Part shown: positions 26,884 to 38,046 of the stretch, one piece after another
Layout: each line of letters opens with the position of its first letter
Numbering within the stretch: the stretch's first letter is position 1
Translations under genes and position numbers: made by a program
Assembly (NCBI GenBank): GCA_017561025.1
Contig: JAFZDU010000051.1
Span: 1 to 47,643, forward strand
DNA from: Bacteroidales bacterium
GTDB taxonomy: Bacteria > Bacteroidota > Bacteroidia > Bacteroidales > F082
DNA: 47,643 bases
Direction of reading: 5' to 3'
Notes under the pieces: generated by a model
The model's database searches: none
What the model was told of the DNA's origin: nothing
What the model saw: only the letters and a program-made list of their open reading frames with translations

Positions 26884-28470
26884 ATGGATAGAAATACATT
26901 ATTTAATATATTGTTGAATAATTTCGGTTTCACTCCTACCGAAGGTCAAGCCAAGGTTTTATATCATCTTTCTGCATTTATTTTAACGGAGAAAGAACGA
27001 CCTGTGTATCTTTTAAGAGGATATGCTGGTACAGGAAAGACGACATTGGTTTCTGCTTTAGTCAAGACTTTGCCTAGCCTGGGAATGCGTTATCAACTGC
27101 TCGCCCCTACAGGAAGAGCTGCCAAGGTAATGAGCACATATACAGGAAAAGCAGCCTCCACATTACACAGAAAGCTATATCGGTTTCAAGTCAATGCCAA
27201 CGGAGAATTTCGTATGGCAAGAGCTGAAAACAAAGCCAAAGACACTATATTTATCGTTGACGAATGTTCTATGATATCGGATCAGGGTGACGGATATTCC
27301 TGGTCGCGCTCACTTCTCGACGATTTAATAGAATACGTCTTCAGCGGCAGCTGTTGTAAATTGCTGCTTATCGGAGATTCCGCTCAGCTGCCGCCAGTAG
27401 GCCTCGACATCTCCCCCGCAATGGACTTCGACATCCTGAAAAACAGTTTCGCTCTCACACTAGCCACTTACGAGATGAAAGAAGTGATGCGACAAAACTT
27501 GGATTCGGGGATATTATATAATGCTACGGAAATCCGTAATTTAATGTCAACCGGACAACAGTCAACAGTCTTTTATGATAATCAATTTGAATTACCATTA
27601 TTAGACATTAAAAATTTCTCAGATATCGAAAAGATTGATCCGATGTCGTTTGAGGAATTACTATGGCAGAGTTTCGGTGACAAGAGAAGCAACAACGATG
27701 CTGTCGTAATCTGCCGTTCCAACAAGAGAGCCAATATGTTCAACCAAGCCATCAGAAGCAGAGTGCTGCAGGAAGAAGGCGAACTATCTACCGGCGACAA
27801 GCTGATGGTTGTGAAGAATAATTATTATTGGAGCGGTCAGCAGTCAGCAGTCAGCGATCAGCAGTCAACGGTCAACAGTCAACGGTCAATGGCCAGCAAT
27901 CAAGAGGTGCCTGAGCTTGTCGAAGGCACAACTAAAGGATTCGGCACTTCGACAAGCTCAGTGACCGAAACATCTCAGCAACTTAATATATCCTTCATCG
28001 CTAATGGCGATATGATTGAGATTATGAGAATCAACAAGTTTGAGGAGATGTATGGTTTTCATTTCGCTGATGTCGACATACAGCTGACGGATTATGAGGA
28101 AGCTCCGACGCTTTCTGTCAAGATAATAATGGAGACATTATACAGCGATTCCCCTGCCCTCACCAATGAAGAAGCTAAGAGACTATATCAAGCTGTTGAA
28201 GAAGACTATATGGACATTCCCAAAGCTGCAGACCGCCGTAAGGCGATGAAAGACAATCCTTATTACAACGCGCTACAGGTGAAGTTCGGTTATGCTTTGA
28301 CGTGTCACAAGACCCAAGGCGGACAATGGAGCAATGTGTTCATAGAAGCGCCATACCTGCCAAATGAGACCACGCTGGAACTCGGCGACCTCCGTTGGCT
28401 ATACACCGCCATGACTCGCGCCAGCGAGAAGGTGTATCTGGTCAATTTCAAGGATGAATGGTTTATGTGA
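26884..28470 (+). CDS. RecD-like ATP-dependent helicase (UvrD/Pif1-RecD superfamily 1B)
   Basis: 528 residues. Walker A GYAGTGKTTL (about 46-55), Q-motif-like FTPTEGQAKVL before it, GRAAKVMS, Walker B FIVDECSMIS (about 122-131), motif III LIGDSAQLPPVG, and C-terminal CHKTQGGQWSNVFIE and WLYTAMTRASEKVYLV. The protein is shorter than RecD2 and lacks its N-terminal extension; such stand-alone helicases are widespread in Bacteroidota. A repeat-derived insert occupies about residues 316-363, between the helicase core and the C-terminal SH3-like region. A shorter heptad piece encodes about residues 224-229. Both keep the frame. It starts 10 bases after tamL. Confidence 0.9.
   Translation: MDRNTLFNILLNNFGFTPTEGQAKVLYHLSAFILTEKERPVYLLRGYAGTGKTTLVSALVKTLPSLGMRYQLLAPTGRAAKVMSTYTGKAASTLHRKLYRFQVNANGEFRMARAENKAKDTIFIVDECSMISDQGDGYSWSRSLLDDLIEYVFSGSCCKLLLIGDSAQLPPVGLDISPAMDFDILKNSFALTLATYEMKEVMRQNLDSGILYNATEIRNLMSTGQQSTVFYDNQFELPLLDIKNFSDIEKIDPMSFEELLWQSFGDKRSNNDAVVICRSNKRANMFNQAIRSRVLQEEGELSTGDKLMVVKNNYYWSGQQSAVSDQQSTVNSQRSMASNQEVPELVEGTTKGFGTSTSSVTETSQQLNISFIANGDMIEIMRINKFEEMYGFHFADVDIQLTDYEEAPTLSVKIIMETLYSDSPALTNEEAKRLYQAVEEDYMDIPKAADRRKAMKDNPYYNALQVKFGYALTCHKTQGGQWSNVFIEAPYLPNETTLELGDLRWLYTAMTRASEKVYLVNFKDEWFM
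27553..27570. repeat. Short heptad array inside the helicase gene
   Basis: GGACAACAGTCAACAGTC: two and a half GTCAACA-type heptads, read in frame as GQQSTV. Confidence 0.6.
27834..27967. repeat. Composite element inside the helicase gene
   Basis: 27834-27896 is a period-7 array (GCAGTCA, GCGATCA, ACGGTCA, ACAGTCA, ATGGCCA variants). 27906-27929 is a REP-A unit with GTGCC/GGCAC stem, and 27945-27967 is its inverted partner with CACTT/AGTGA stem. Read in frame as serine/glutamine-rich sequence followed by VPELVEGTT and GTSTSSVTE. Confidence 0.88.
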
Positions 28471-28476
28471 TTGATT

Positions 28477-28650
28477 GTACGGACGCGATTTATCGCGTCC
28501 TACATTAATGGATACGATTTATCGCGTCCTACATTAATGGACACGATGAATCGTGTCCGTACATCACATTGCTGATATTGATGGAATATACGTACGGACG
28601 CGATTTATCGCGTCCTTTACACATGTGGACACGATGAATCGTGTCCGTAC
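28477..28650. repeat. REP-B array upstream of the RAYT gene
   Basis: Five palindromes: 28477-28504, 28510-28532, 28539-28562, 28592-28620 and 28627-28650. Each is an 8- to 12-bp stem with a four-base loop. Two have GGACGCGA/TCGCGTCC stems and two have GGACACGA/TCGTGTCC. 28510-28532 is mixed. Octads of CATGCATA type follow at 28649-28677. Confidence 0.92.
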
Positions 28651-28703
28651 ATGCATACATGCATAAATGCATACGATGTTAATAATTTTTATATATTTTT
28701 TTG

Positions 28704-28734
28704 TTGAAATATTGTGATTATCACAATACCTTTG
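28704..28734 (+). promoter_or_regulatory. RAYT promoter with a 17-bp palindrome between its boxes
   Basis: TTG (28704-28706), 20 bases, TACCTTTG (28727-28734), an exact -7 box. Between them ATTGTGATTATCACAAT (28711-28727) is a perfect palindrome, placed where a bound regulator would block RNA polymerase. It contains TGTGA/TCACA half sites like those of the CRP/FNR family but with a 3-base spacer. Predicted start near 28740; ATG at 28750. Confidence 0.65.
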
Positions 28735-28749
28735 CAAAAACTAAAATTT

Positions 28750-29352
28750 ATGGGTAACATTTATCATGAGCGCAAATCTCCGCGTGCCAATTGGCATGAG
28801 TACGATGGTGGAGATTATTTTGTAACTATATGTACAAAAGACAAATTTCATTATTTCGGTGAGATAAAAAATGACGAGATAAAATTGACAGACATCGGCA
28901 TTTATCTAAAATCACAAATTGAAAATATTCAGAAATATTATCCATTTGCTGAAGTATTGTTATACACTATTATGCCGAATCATATTCATTTAATAATATC
29001 CATTTGTACGGACGCGATTCATCGCGTCCATACATCAGACGCGATTCATCGCGTCCATACGGCAGTGAACACGAATGATACAGCGATTCATCGCGTCCAT
29101 AATAATGATAATAATGATACAATGGACGCGATTAATCGCGTCCCTACATCGGCGCGCAATGTAATGAAAAAGCAGATGTTAGGCAGTGTAATACGTGGGC
29201 TGAAAGCTCGCGTCACAAAATATGCCAATGACAACAAAATACAATTCGCATGGTTGGGACGTTATAACGACAGAATCATTCGTAATAAAAATGAGATGAA
29301 CAGAATAGCAGAATATATCACCAACAACCCTATCAAATGGAAATCGAATTGA
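28750..29352 (+). CDS. REP-associated tyrosine transposase (RAYT, Y1 HUH family) with in-frame REP copies
   Basis: 200 residues from ATG 28750 (MGNIYHERKSPRANWHEYDG); an in-frame GTG at 28714 lies inside the promoter and is rejected. Y1_Tnp features: GGDYFVTICTKDKFHYFGEI, the HUH motif MPNHIHLIIS with H78 and H80, and C-terminal GRYNDRIIRNKNEMNRIAEY (Y172 is the likely nucleophile) then ITNNPIKW. Residues 86-137 are encoded by four REP-B palindromes and spacers: three read as (D)AIHRVH and one as DAINRV. Outside this insert the protein is about 150 residues, typical for a RAYT. RAYTs process single-stranded REP hairpins and are thought to spread them. The HUH, tyrosine and C-terminal motifs are intact, so the enzyme may be active. 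Confidence 0.9.
   Translation: MGNIYHERKSPRANWHEYDGGDYFVTICTKDKFHYFGEIKNDEIKLTDIGIYLKSQIENIQKYYPFAEVLLYTIMPNHIHLIISICTDAIHRVHTSDAIHRVHTAVNTNDTAIHRVHNNDNNDTMDAINRVPTSARNVMKKQMLGSVIRGLKARVTKYANDNKIQFAWLGRYNDRIIRNKNEMNRIAEYITNNPIKWKSN
29006..29147. repeat. Four REP-B palindromes inside the RAYT gene
   Basis: 29006-29033, 29038-29060, 29083-29101 (partial) and 29124-29147. The loops differ (TTCA versus TTAA) but the stems are the same. Confidence 0.92.
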
Positions 29353-29381
29353 TTTTGTATTATTGCGATGCCATCCCTATT

Positions 29382-29509
29382 GTACGGACGCGATTTATCG
29401 CGTAAATTCCCTATTGTACGGACGCGATTTATCGCGTCCATATATATAGGACACGATGAATCGTGTCCGTACATTGTACATTGGTGGACACGATAAATCG
29501 TGTCCGTAC
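29382..29509. repeat. REP-B array downstream of the RAYT gene
   Basis: 29382-29403 (right end cut off after CGCGT), 29416-29442, 29449-29472 and 29485-29509. The last two carry the GGACACGA/TCGTGTCC stem. Confidence 0.92.
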
Positions 29510-29518
29510 ATGCATACC

Positions 29519-29562
29519 ACAAAAAAATTTCCGCCGAGGTTTTTACCCCCGACGGAAATTGA
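29519..29562 (-). terminator. Terminator of the minus-strand secreted-protein genes
   Basis: On the minus strand AATTTCCGTCGGGGG, short loop, CCTCGGCGGAAATT, then seven T. It lies 53 bases beyond the stop at 29615 and inside the REP-B array. Confidence 0.8.
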
Positions 29563-29581
29563 TTAAATAAATCAAATAAAG

Positions 29582-29608
29582 TAAGGATGCGATTAATCGC
29601 ATCCCTAC
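29582..29608. repeat. REP-B variant
   Basis: GGATGCGATTAATCGCATCC: both stem arms carry the matching change (ATG/CAT) relative to the main form. It lies 7 bases from the stop of the FISUMP-like gene. Confidence 0.85.
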
Positions 29609-29614
29609 ACGCTT

Positions 29615-31081
29615 TTATTCTCGAACAGGACGAATAGAATACCCGAGGTAGCGTTGAGTGGTGCTGCTGACCACGTAGTGACTACTGCTATTGAAGGAGA
29701 GGAGGCAGGAGGAGTTGTTGTAGCCATCGCCGCGAGGCGTAGAACTCCAATAGCTGCCATCGTCACCTGGAGTATGAAGCGATGTATCAATGCGATAAGC
29801 CGCAGCAGGAAGGAAAATACAGTTGCTGTTTACTTTTGATGCAACCTTATAGCCATTAACGCCATTTTGCGTTGTCCAGGTCCAGGTACAATTATTTATC
29901 AGTTCGTACATTTCGTTTTCTGTTGGCATACGCCATTCACCGCCCCAGTTAACAGTAGCCGCATCGTATTCTGTACCGCTGATGTCACTCATAGGCTTAT
30001 TGTATGTTTCACTATTGGCTGCGGTATATGTTTCTTTTGTAACTACTTCACCCCATGCGTAATAGTTACCATATTCTTCTGGCGTAGTTGCTCCGATATT
30101 ATGTGTAGCCCATTTCAAGCCAGATGGCAAGCCTAAGTCTACACACTCATATTCTATTGGAGTTTCCAATGTTGTAAATGAAACCACCTCGCTATATGAA
30201 GTTCCTTCACTATTTGTAGCGTATGCCTTTACATAATATGTAGTATTTGGGGTTAAATCTATCAATGCATTGTTTATATATCCCCCTTCGTTTTCTAAAA
30301 CAACCTTATTATCTGCTTCGCTTGGCTCTGCGTTTGTACCCCAATAGAAACCACGTTCTGTGATTTCAGAGCCTCCATCTGTTGCGTATGTACCAATTAC
30401 TGCAGTAACATCTGTACATTTTACTTCTAATATTGTAACAACTGGCATTTCAATGCCGATTCTACTTTTAACCGGGCGCACAGAGTAGCCGTTGTCACGA
30501 CCGTGGTAGCTCGTGTAATGACTACCACCATCAAATTCGAGGTAGTATGCGATGCTGGTAGTACTGCTCGGCGTAGAACTCCAATAGTAACTGCGACCAC
30601 AACTTCCGCTATAAAACGAATTTCCACTAAAATACCCTACTGCAGGAAGGAAGATGCTATTGCCATTAGGTCCTGTTACCTTATAGCCTTTAACACCGTT
30701 TTGTTTGGTCCACTCCCATGTACATTTGTTATTTAATTCTTCCATTTCTGCATTTGTTGGCATTCTCCAATCACCTCCCCAGTTGGCAGTAGCCGCATCA
30801 TATTGTGCGTTACCAGAGATGTCTTCCATTTGTTTTCCGTATGTCAAACTATTTGATTGGTTATATTCTTCTTTTGGTTTTGTCTCTCCCCATGCGTAAT
30901 AGTTTCCGCATTGTTCTGGCGTCTTGGCTCCCACATTACATGTAGCCCATTTCAATCCAGAAGGCAATCCGAGGTCAACCCATTCGTGACCATTCTCAGT
31001 ACCAGTGCTCTGAGCACCCAAAGGCATGTTTAATCCGAGTAAACAAACAAGTGCTATTATTATTGTTGATAATTTTTTCAT
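29615..31081 (-). CDS. Secreted protein with two FISUMP-like domains
   Basis: 488 residues with signal peptide (IIIALVCLLGLNMPLGAQS). Two copies of a 175-residue domain (about 32-207 and 310-488) match the Fibrobacter succinogenes major paralogous domain pattern: VDLGLPSGLKWAT, GNYYAWGE, WGGDWRMPT or WGGEWRMPT, NGVKGYKV, FLPAVGY, YWSST and GYSVRPV. A fibronectin-III-like module joins them (about 215-305; TPNTTYYVKAYATNSEGTSY). No type A sorting domain is visible, so its export beyond the periplasm is uncertain. The function of the family is unknown. Divided from the subtilisin gene by a composite repeat at 31099-31231. Confidence 0.85.
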   Translation of the reverse strand: MKKLSTIIIALVCLLGLNMPLGAQSTGTENGHEWVDLGLPSGLKWATCNVGAKTPEQCGNYYAWGETKPKEEYNQSNSLTYGKQMEDISGNAQYDAATANWGGDWRMPTNAEMEELNNKCTWEWTKQNGVKGYKVTGPNGNSIFLPAVGYFSGNSFYSGSCGRSYYWSSTPSSTTSIAYYLEFDGGSHYTSYHGRDNGYSVRPVKSRIGIEMPVVTILEVKCTDVTAVIGTYATDGGSEITERGFYWGTNAEPSEADNKVVLENEGGYINNALIDLTPNTTYYVKAYATNSEGTSYSEVVSFTTLETPIEYECVDLGLPSGLKWATHNIGATTPEEYGNYYAWGEVVTKETYTAANSETYNKPMSDISGTEYDAATVNWGGEWRMPTENEMYELINNCTWTWTTQNGVNGYKVASKVNSNCIFLPAAAYRIDTSLHTPGDDGSYWSSTPRGDGYNNSSCLLSFNSSSHYVVSSTTQRYLGYSIRPVRE

Positions 31082-31098
31082 GATATTTCTTTTTTAAA

Positions 31099-31231
31099 GG
31101 TCAACAGACAACGGTCAACGGTCAACAGTTCTTGAGTATATGGTGCCTGAGCTTGTCGAAGGCAGCTGTCACTTCGACAAGCTCAGTGACCAGCGAACAT
31201 TGTCTGTTGTCTGTAGTCTGTTGACTGTTGT
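31099..31231. repeat. Composite element with heptad arrays on both sides
   Basis: 31099-31130 is a GTCAACA/GTCAACG array, 31142-31191 a REP-A pair with stems GTGCC and GTCAC, and 31200-31231 a TGTCTGT/TGACTGT array, the complement of the left array. The whole forms a loose inverted repeat of about 130 bp between two genes. Confidence 0.88.
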
Positions 31232-36016: not shown

Positions 36017-36170
36017 GTAGGGACGCGATTAATCGCGTCCGTACTTCGTGGGTATACGGTCGCTGAGCTTGTCGAAGCGATGAGCATTGTGCCTTCGACA
36101 GGCTCAGGCACCGAGGATGAAGTCCCGTAGGGACGCGATTAATCGCGTCCGTACTCTGTTGTCTGTTGTC
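36017..36170. repeat. REP-B / REP-A pair / REP-B / heptad block
   Basis: REP-B at 36017-36044 and 36127-36154, identical over 28 bases and each starting GTAG. Between them a REP-A pair at 36058-36114 has stems GTCGC/GCGA and GTGCC/GGCAC. A TCTGTTG array follows at 36155-36170, ending directly at the stop codon of the next gene. Both palindrome families are nested here. Confidence 0.9.
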
Positions 36171-36171
36171 A

Positions 36172-38046
36172 TTATTCTAATATTATCTTCTGTACATTAA
36201 TTCCTTTATCATCATTTTTTTGTATCACGTATACACCTGCGCTGAAGCCTCCCGTAGGGACGCGATTAATCGCGTCCGTACAATTGCCGTTATATATGCA
36301 GCGGCCCATCGCGTCAAATATGCTGATATCGGCATCACCTGAAATGTCGTAGATTACAATATCACCATTATTTATATATGCAAAATGACTGTTGTCCGTT
36401 GTCTGTTGTCCGTTGTCTTTCAGCAACACGAATCTTTCTGCATTATCATCAGACGCTGCTATGAATGAATATTCGTTTTCCAAAAGCAGATTGATCTTTT
36501 CACCTGTCATACGATCCAACAGCACAAGGTTCTCGAAATCGCCTTTAAGTTCGAAGCTCAATGTGTAGCTTCCCATTTCCTTTGCATCGAAACATACAGG
36601 GATTTCTTTTGCATCTTCATTGCTGTTGAAGATAGCATAATTGACATCTGACTCTTTCACATAAACAGTAGCTATTCTGTCGTTGAAGTTATGCAGTTTA
36701 GGGAAGCCGCTGCTTTCGTTTTCTCCGAAACGGATGATGAGGTTGTCAGAAGTTTCAGAATTAGAAGCTATAATATTGATATAATCCTTTTTCTCATTTC
36801 TTGATTTTTCAGAAGCATCATATTCAAGAAATGGATTTTTTCCGCATGTACAAATCATAAAACCCTCTCCTACTTTTATGGTTCCTTCAACATTATAAAT
36901 ATATGCTCCAGTGGTAGAATTTAATGTCACGAATCCATCCTCCATTCTTCTCGAATTATAATTCATATAATCTTCCCAAACGATATCAAAACTAAACGGA
37001 TTACCTAAAAGATGGAAGTTTGCCCAATCATTATTTGAATTATAAGAAATAGGAAAATCGTGATATATAGCTTCATTATACAAAACTCCTTTAAACGATG
37101 CTGTAGTTTGTGTTTCGTATGAAGCCAGATAACCAACTCCTTGTTGGAACTCTGTTTCAAAGTCATTATGACTTTTATAGTTAACCCATTGAAGTTCTGC
37201 ATTGCCATCAAATTTATACAAGTCATAATCGCCACTTGCCGGTAAAAATCCTTCTGTTTGAGCATTTATCATTGGAGAAGAAACGAATTGCCATCCGCTT
37301 TTTTGAGTGCTCCATGATGTAGGGTTAACGATATTCTTATTAAATGTTGCAGCAACATTTTTGCTTGTCTGAACTATCTGTCCTCCCTCTTCAATTATCA
37401 AGGCATTTGGGTCACCGTTAGACAACTTTTCAGTTACTGTCAAGAGACCACCATCCTGAATCGTCAAAGATTTGTTTTCATTAATAACCAAGCTATTTAC
37501 AGTAATGTCGCTTTTATTTGTAATTATAGCTGCGCCGTTTACGACCACGTCATCATCGGCTGTTGGCAATGTTTTGTTTTGCCAGTTGTTTACATCATTC
37601 CAAGAGCCCTCACCTGTAAAAATAACAGCTGGGATTGGGGTAATGAAACTTATTTTATATGGTTCTGTTGCTGTGCCTTCAGTTGCATCTATTTCAAATG
37701 TATATGACTGATTGCAGTCTAATTCCAGCACTGAAGCTGTGTTATGGTCATACAATTTGAATGTAAGCTCACATGCAGCATCACTGAATAAAGTGATATT
37801 ATAAACATACTTACCTGTAATGTTGGATATTGAAGGAAGAGCGGATCCTCTGACCTCATCACCACAAAACACACCTAACTCGAGATTGTTATTCTGCTGC
37901 TCCACATCATCAACATAAACTGTAGCTACCATATTCATATTATGTTCATATTGCTGATGATCAAACTGCCAATACAGTTCTGACGATGACGCAAACGCCA
38001 GTCTTGAACTTAAGAGAATACCTAATACAATAAAAATCTTTTTCAT
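36172..38046 (-). CDS. Secreted protein with type IX sorting domain invaded by a REP
   Basis: 624 residues with signal peptide (MKKIFIVLGILLSSRLAFAS). Region 25-135 is beta-rich (VYVDDVEQQNNNLELGVFCG). Region 145-245 looks like a short beta-helix (GEGSWNDVNNWQNKTLPTAD ... SLTIQDGGLLTVTEKLSNGD), and later parts match large Bacteroidota T9SS surface proteins (GWQFVSSPM, HLLGNPFSFDI). The C-terminus is a sorting domain (ISIFDAMGRCIYNG ... FSAGVYVIQKND). Residues about 543-553 (DNGQQTTDNSH) come from heptads. Residues about 589-598 (TDAINRVPT) come from a REP-B copy placed within the sorting domain itself. 11 bases downstream of the cohesin-like gene, so likely one transcript. Confidence 0.85.
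   Translation of the reverse strand: MKKIFIVLGILLSSRLAFASSSELYWQFDHQQYEHNMNMVATVYVDDVEQQNNNLELGVFCGDEVRGSALPSISNITGKYVYNITLFSDAACELTFKLYDHNTASVLELDCNQSYTFEIDATEGTATEPYKISFITPIPAVIFTGEGSWNDVNNWQNKTLPTADDDVVVNGAAIITNKSDITVNSLVINENKSLTIQDGGLLTVTEKLSNGDPNALIIEEGGQIVQTSKNVAATFNKNIVNPTSWSTQKSGWQFVSSPMINAQTEGFLPASGDYDLYKFDGNAELQWVNYKSHNDFETEFQQGVGYLASYETQTTASFKGVLYNEAIYHDFPISYNSNNDWANFHLLGNPFSFDIVWEDYMNYNSRRMEDGFVTLNSTTGAYIYNVEGTIKVGEGFMICTCGKNPFLEYDASEKSRNEKKDYINIIASNSETSDNLIIRFGENESSGFPKLHNFNDRIATVYVKESDVNYAIFNSNEDAKEIPVCFDAKEMGSYTLSFELKGDFENLVLLDRMTGEKINLLLENEYSFIAASDDNAERFVLLKDNGQQTTDNSHFAYINNGDIVIYDISGDADISIFDAMGRCIYNGNCTDAINRVPTGGFSAGVYVIQKNDDKGINVQKIILE
36254..36281. repeat. REP-B palindrome inside a sorting-domain gene
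   Basis: Same 28-base form as at 36017 and 36127 (GTAG, GGACGCGATTAATCGCGTCC, GTAC), read in frame as TDAINRVPT. Confidence 0.9.
36387..36418. repeat. Heptad array inside a sorting-domain gene
   Basis: CTGTTGT, CCGTTGT, CTGTTGT, CCGTTGT units with period 7, read in frame on the minus strand as DNGQQTTDN. Confidence 0.8.

Follow-up and report, generated by a model that had tools for sequence, protein, structure and literature searches.

REP palindromes read in frame inside a RAYT gene of a Bacteroidales bacterium, as already described for its enzyme group, and an unusual residue at the WQ motif

The window, i.e. the whole stretch of 47,643 nucleotides that was analysed, contains a gene for a REP-associated tyrosine transposase (RAYT, TnpA_REP) that is both flanked and entered by copies of a palindrome, REP-B, which we searched for with the pattern GGACGCGATTNATCGCGTCC (20 nt, up to 3 mismatches allowed). 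The features are as follows, all on the + strand.

28481..28646, +, upstream REP-B array with copies at 28481, 28510, 28539, 28596 and 28627 (pattern match)
28750..29352, +, RAYT/TnpA_REP gene, 200 aa, ATG start at 28750
28978..28989, +, HUH motif N77-H78-I79-H80
29010..29029, +, internal REP-B copy 1, GTAC foot, residues 88-93 (DAIHRV)
29037..29056, +, internal REP-B copy 2, residues 97-102 (DAIHRV)
29079..29098, +, internal REP-B copy 3, 5'-truncated, residues 111-116 (TAIHRV)
29124..29143, +, internal REP-B copy 4, GTAG foot on the minus strand, residues 126-131 (DAINRV)
29251..29256, +, W168-L169, WL where related RAYTs have the WQ motif, aligned with W94-Q95 of 4er8
29314..29331, +, Y motif YITNNP with the catalytic Y189 and the metal-ligand position N193, by alignment to the Y motif of 4er8
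29386..29604, +, downstream REP-B array with copies at 29386, 29420, 29449, 29486 and 29585 (pattern match)
36021..36277, +, three further REP-B copies, all having both a GTAG and a GTAC foot; the third is in frame in ORF 36175-38046 (-)

The reading frame of the RAYT gene is open from end to end, and an alternative GTG start at 28714 would give a protein of 212 aa. For comparison we used 139 distinct RAYT frames, which remained from 173 profile-matched ORFs after removal of 20 duplicates and of 14 ORFs without the HUH/Y pair; they were gathered by similarity to the window's relatives, many are from one genus, and they are not a random sample. A first-pass annotation of this DNA had named H78 and H80 as the HUH residues, and both are present in all 139 alignment rows. 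Its choice of Y172 as the tyrosine was wrong: the catalytic residue is Y189, which is Tyr in every row and lies in the segment aligned with the 4er8 Y motif, while the metal-ligand role at N193 is taken from residue N119 of the E. coli enzyme (PMC6006769). With Y189 as the tyrosine, the insert does lie between the HUH motif and the tyrosine, as had been stated. The description of the rest of the protein as complete holds for 24 of the 25 columns conserved in at least 90% of the rows and fails at the remaining one, Q169, which is here Leu.

The protein has an HUH motif, one catalytic Tyr within a Y---NP context and the HuH/Y1 core fold, and its gene is flanked by ten copies of a REP that is repeated genome-wide; together, these features identify it as a class 2 TnpA_REP. 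It is nearest to subclass 2.4, as its NHIH and YITNNP correspond to the subclass motifs NH[IFV]H and YIxNNP and four REP copies (residues 88-131) are inserted in frame between HuH and Y. Given that W168-L169 stands in place of the WQ motif, whose Q is found in 137 of the 139 related rows, we regard the enzyme as a variant rather than a plain member of this subclass. A Pfam search at 0.001 assigned the window protein to no family, and its paralogue in the same genome, L031, scored 21.1 bits against Y1_Tnp (PF01797), for which the cut-off is 23. In the AlphaFold model the residue blocks 21-80 and 151-190 have confidence values of 93-98, and the insert blocks 91-140 are of low confidence (43-59).

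The 14 REP-B palindromes that had been reported around and inside the gene are confirmed within 28477-29608. Four lie inside the frame, and the flanking copies, previously given as nine or ten, number exactly ten. The pattern matches 13 of the 14 at up to 3 mismatches, the truncated copy at 29079 being the exception, and it has zero matches in 100 shuffles of the window. Across 28481-28564 the upstream array has a tandem period of 29 nt, and just two of the eight spacings within the flank arrays, 57 and 99, are multiples of 3. The spacings of the internal copies are 27, 42 and 45 nt, each a multiple of 3, and the frame is therefore preserved at every step; the internal copies are coding without a stop, as had been noted. 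The array folds better than its shuffles both as DNA (z -7.2) and as RNA (z -6.0), because its units are palindromes.

Repeats are also found in the neighbouring genes. The helicase ORF at 26884-28470 contains in-frame AGCAGTC/CAGTCAAC-type repeats and, after them, a pair of TGCCTGAGCTTGTCGAAGGCA and TTCGACAAGCTCAGTGACC (27832-27966), and the AGCAGTC/CAGTCAAC repeats and the TGCCTGAGCTTGTCGAAGGCA/TTCGACAAGCTCAGTGACC pair recur at 31096-31191. The ORF at 29615-31081 has an Lcl_C domain in two stretches, and its halves hold repeats that are 72-76% alike in DNA.

The central idea of the first-pass annotation, that the transposase gene has been entered in frame by its own REPs, is already in print, because in-frame REPs inside tnpAREP genes, generally between HuH and Y, are described for subclass 2.4 in the passages of Quentin et al. 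(2018, PMC6006769) cited here, in which a model puts the variable region at the periphery and in-gene REPs are termed unique to 2.4, though some members of 2.8 carry one. The window gene shares with this subclass NHIH, YITNNP, the flanking REPs and the position of the in-frame REPs in that peripheral region; it differs in having WL rather than WQ, feet that are mostly GTAC rather than GT[AG]G, and four units in the loop. It differs also from the E. coli TnpA_REP of subclass 2.2 (PDB 4er8), in-gene REPs being a feature of 2.4 (PMC6006769), and the E. coli REPs are bulged and the GTAG is contacted by the C-terminal tail of the E. coli enzyme (PMC8266576). REPs have been reported inside many other genes (PMC3733652): the intragenic GTAG/CGTC REPs of Di Nocera et al. 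(2013), like the Rickettsia RPEs cited there, are palindromes in genes of varied function, many of them in frame, but many of the genes that hold them act in DNA synthesis and repair, whereas one host in the window is the cognate transposase. Among the titles listed by our literature searches, none besides PMC6006769, PMC3733652 and PMC8266576 concerns in-frame self-invasion, and parts of what is added here may also be published.

Comparison with the paralogue and with relatives places the insert in this context. L031 (G000:C113) has neither a REP nor a hairpin in its loop, and the loop segment is therefore not a fixed part of the protein. Downstream of L031 lies a different REP family, GTAGGGACGCATCGAATGCGTCC, with 44 forward sites in the genome; among the places listed, its copies lie within 150 bases of the end of 11 contigs and may for that reason break the assembly. 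In the relative L069 the same part of the RAYT loop holds a separate REP-B array. This array consists of tandem 21-nt half-REP units (DAINHNA repeated) followed by one whole REP-B, and looks grown by duplication rather than by insertion. Three near-identical enzymes, L042, L038 and L009 (dS 0.04-0.08), have one, two and three in-frame loop units, respectively. In the pairs L004/L150 and L150/L153 the loop DNA is identical across 99 aligned nt, compared to a 7-9% difference between the cores; this pattern would fit an exchange of the loop region. Further individual cases are L011, a RAYT frame with a REP-like loop stretch in which the helix before the WQ motif seems to be missing; L026, with a REP hairpin inside the N-part of the frame; and L024, with an additional RGDPRGR stretch at a position similar to that of the L026 hairpin.

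Among the 139 frames, 67 have a loop hairpin with a score of at least 10 (78 hairpins in all) and 72 have none; a first count had found loop hairpins in 63 of 131 RAYT frames. Outside the loop, such hairpins occur in four frames in the N-part and in five in the C-part. Counted over the frames and their flanks, there are 77 in 15,965 bp of mid-loop, 44 in 13,680 bp within 100 bp upstream and 54 in 13,740 bp within 100 bp downstream, compared to 4 in 34,705 bp of the N-part and 5 in 8,485 bp of the C-part, and beyond 1.4 kb the density is 0.11-0.15 per kb. Hairpin density thus peaks directly upstream, directly downstream and in the middle of the loop, and the catalytic parts are near background. 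With a score of at least 9, the loop has a hairpin in 82 of the 139 genes, as opposed to 9 for the N-part, 3 for the C-part and 3 loops after one codon shuffle. Self-invasion in frame by the enzyme's own REP type is therefore real but not special to the window gene, and the segment that was to be looked for in homologues, lacking as a REP in L031, has a strong hairpin in nearly half of the related frames.

The loop hairpins resemble the REPs of their own locus. In the 50 of 139 loci in which this could be tested, the mean similarity of the loop hairpin to the flank hairpins of its own locus is 0.89 and to those of other loci 0.62, a difference matched by none of 2000 permutations; in 7 of the 50 loci the loop hairpin is unlike its own flanks. 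The encoded peptide is not constant: of the 78 loop hairpins, 48 leave only frames 0 and 1 open, and 21 of these use frame 0 and 27 use frame 1; two identical loop elements were found in both frames in different genes. The dN/dS of the cores is low, both with and without loop hairpins: among 240 pairs, the 45 closest give values of 0.06-0.26. Mapped on a tree of weak resolution, the presence of a loop hairpin changes at least 30 times, compared to a mean of 46.5 after shuffling, with none of 1000 shuffles giving as few changes; this non-random distribution implies that loop hairpins are inherited in part, rather than arising by new insertion alone, and are often gained or lost.

REP-B is not confined to the RAYT gene. 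In a survey of 56 of the 60 sites counted in the genome (up to 3 mismatches), 12 copies are in frame in 8 other ORFs, 7 of which have Pfam families. The hosts are shikimate dehydrogenase-, FucP-, glyoxalase-, methyltransferase-, ABC ATPase-, TilS- and rhamnulokinase-like, with one lacking a Pfam family (loci L179, L190, L193, L196, L199, L200 and L201, and window 36258-36277). The FucP-like ORF has three copies and the TilS-like ORF two; by NCBIfam, FucP and TilS score above the cut-off, and shikimate dehydrogenase and rhamnulokinase below it. Two frames are used, DAINRV-like and GTRLIAS. The TilS-like ORF (L201:2034-3620) contains, besides its REP-B copies, further repeat-like in-frame stretches (ELVEGTTHGASTSSATA, SKFKVQGSKF). 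The simplest background is that this genome tolerates in-frame REPs generally. The first-pass annotation had also proposed a feedback loop in which the coding strand holds substrate and the insert may alter the activity of the enzyme. This is not borne out by the low-confidence model of the insert, the unconserved peptide or the occurrence of REP-B in other genes, and the earlier interpretation is supported in part, as to in-frame self-invasion and not as to feedback.

Combining these data, we suggest as the probable explanation that the RAYT gene lives among its cognate REPs: (i) REPs would enter DNA preferentially near the RAYT gene, or be retained there, (ii) entries into the catalytic core would be removed by selection, (iii) the loop that joins the HUH strand to the helix after it would tolerate entries that keep the frame, and (iv) the loop array would then grow and shrink by in-frame steps. 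Loop copies would mostly be passengers, in which the DNA hairpin stays recognisable and the encoded peptide is not the thing kept. The position of the hairpins, their match to the flanking REPs, the use of both frames, the low core dN/dS and the REP-B copies in other genes are direct observations; that RAYT itself places the copies, that proximity to RAYT causes the REP excess and that the loop is without function are suggested by them. The main point that this model leaves unexplained is a numerical one. Loop hairpins occur at 6.1 per kb of native bases, compared to about 4-5.5 per kb at the flank peaks, whereas by our own rough estimate (2/3 frames, 1/3 lengths) a frame-filtered neutral model predicts about one fifth of the flank rate; this excess may point to retention or in-place replacement. 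The partial inheritance of the hairpins and the seven loci with unlike flanks also argue against the model. In 13 chosen pairs, pooled, hairpins are kept at 0.894 and the rest of the loop at 0.841, but the relation is reversed in two pairs and tied in two, and the comparison is weakened by gaps and shared ancestry.

Alternatively, the loop REP could be a selected cis element, its coding strand or mRNA hairpin being bound by the enzyme for autoregulation, or serving as a REP seed that travels with the gene. The resemblance to the flanks, the excess over our neutral estimate, the folding of the window array and the use of both frames, which implies that DNA or RNA and not peptide is kept, are in line with this idea. 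We nevertheless consider it unlikely, given that the 72 frames do without such a hairpin, its presence changes often on the tree, REP-B is also found in unrelated genes, and good folding follows from palindromes.

The Leu at position 169, found among the 139 rows in the window protein only, allows an additional and tentative proposal, compatible with the passenger model, in which L169 stands in place of the Gln that contacts the GTAG foot in E. coli and the REPs have moved to GTAC, a change that might shift cleavage from CT/CA to GT/GA. In E. coli TnpA_REP the aligned Q95 is among the residues contacting the GTAG foot (PMC6006769, PMC8266576). Of the 10 flank copies, 3 have a GTAG foot, compared to 38 of 43 REP-B copies elsewhere (Fisher p 0.0005), although these counts are not independent because the flank copies are partly tandem duplicates; 7 of the 10 have a GTAC foot only, and one of the three pattern-matched internal copies has a GTAG foot. 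The relatives L069 and L031 retain Q and have mainly GTAG feet. However, a GTAC foot is also found on 14 of the 43 copies elsewhere, and of the three loci among 139 with mainly GTAC feet by our own rule, two (L118 and L132) retain Q, the third being the window. GTAC substrates are cut at GA or GT by the Marinomonas TnpA_REP, whereas GTAC abolished cleavage in that of S. maltophilia (PMC8266576); because one enzyme cuts such substrates and another does not, the shift is possible. The passages cited leave the base contacted by Q95 unspecified, and contacts to the last two foot bases are assigned to the E. coli C-terminal tail (PMC8266576).

An equal rival to this proposal, and just as doubtful, is that the enzyme is decaying, with the Q169L substitution and the degenerate feet of the local REPs marking a loss of activity. 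The truncation of internal copy 3 and the presence of a GTAG foot on one of the four internal copies would fit; the otherwise intact conserved columns and a frame preserved across four units, with every spacing a multiple of 3, argue against it.

A more speculative and rather improbable model is that in this RAYT group the in-frame loop is kept as a landing site that holds a copy of the current substrate, with loop REPs being replaced in step with the flanks and read in any open frame, and, in the window, with Q169L and the GTAC foot changing together. If this were true, the gene would carry its own substrate type wherever it goes. Finally, an assembly artefact is very improbable: the genome is in 126 contigs and the GTAGGGACGCATCGAATGCGTCC family lies near contig ends, but the array is interior to a 47.6-kb contig (contig 48 of 126), in an open frame, and the REP-B array in the loop of L069 and the loop hairpins of the first count of RAYT frames also argue against an artefact.

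Self-entry is already known from this enzyme group; what sets the window gene apart is mainly one DNA-reading residue and the ends of its hairpins. Natural series are available among the RAYT genes that have loop REPs, as in the near-identical enzymes with one, two and three units. Loop REPs record the pairing of a REP type with an enzyme, and this bears on how REPs spread and how enzymes and REPs are matched. The window gene contributes a natural substitution at a position whose E. coli residue contacts the GTAG foot, and this substitution occurs alongside GTAC feet. The in-frame REP-B copies in AroE-, FucP-, TilS- and RhaB-like genes, in turn, indicate that several entries of this kind can be borne by a single genome.
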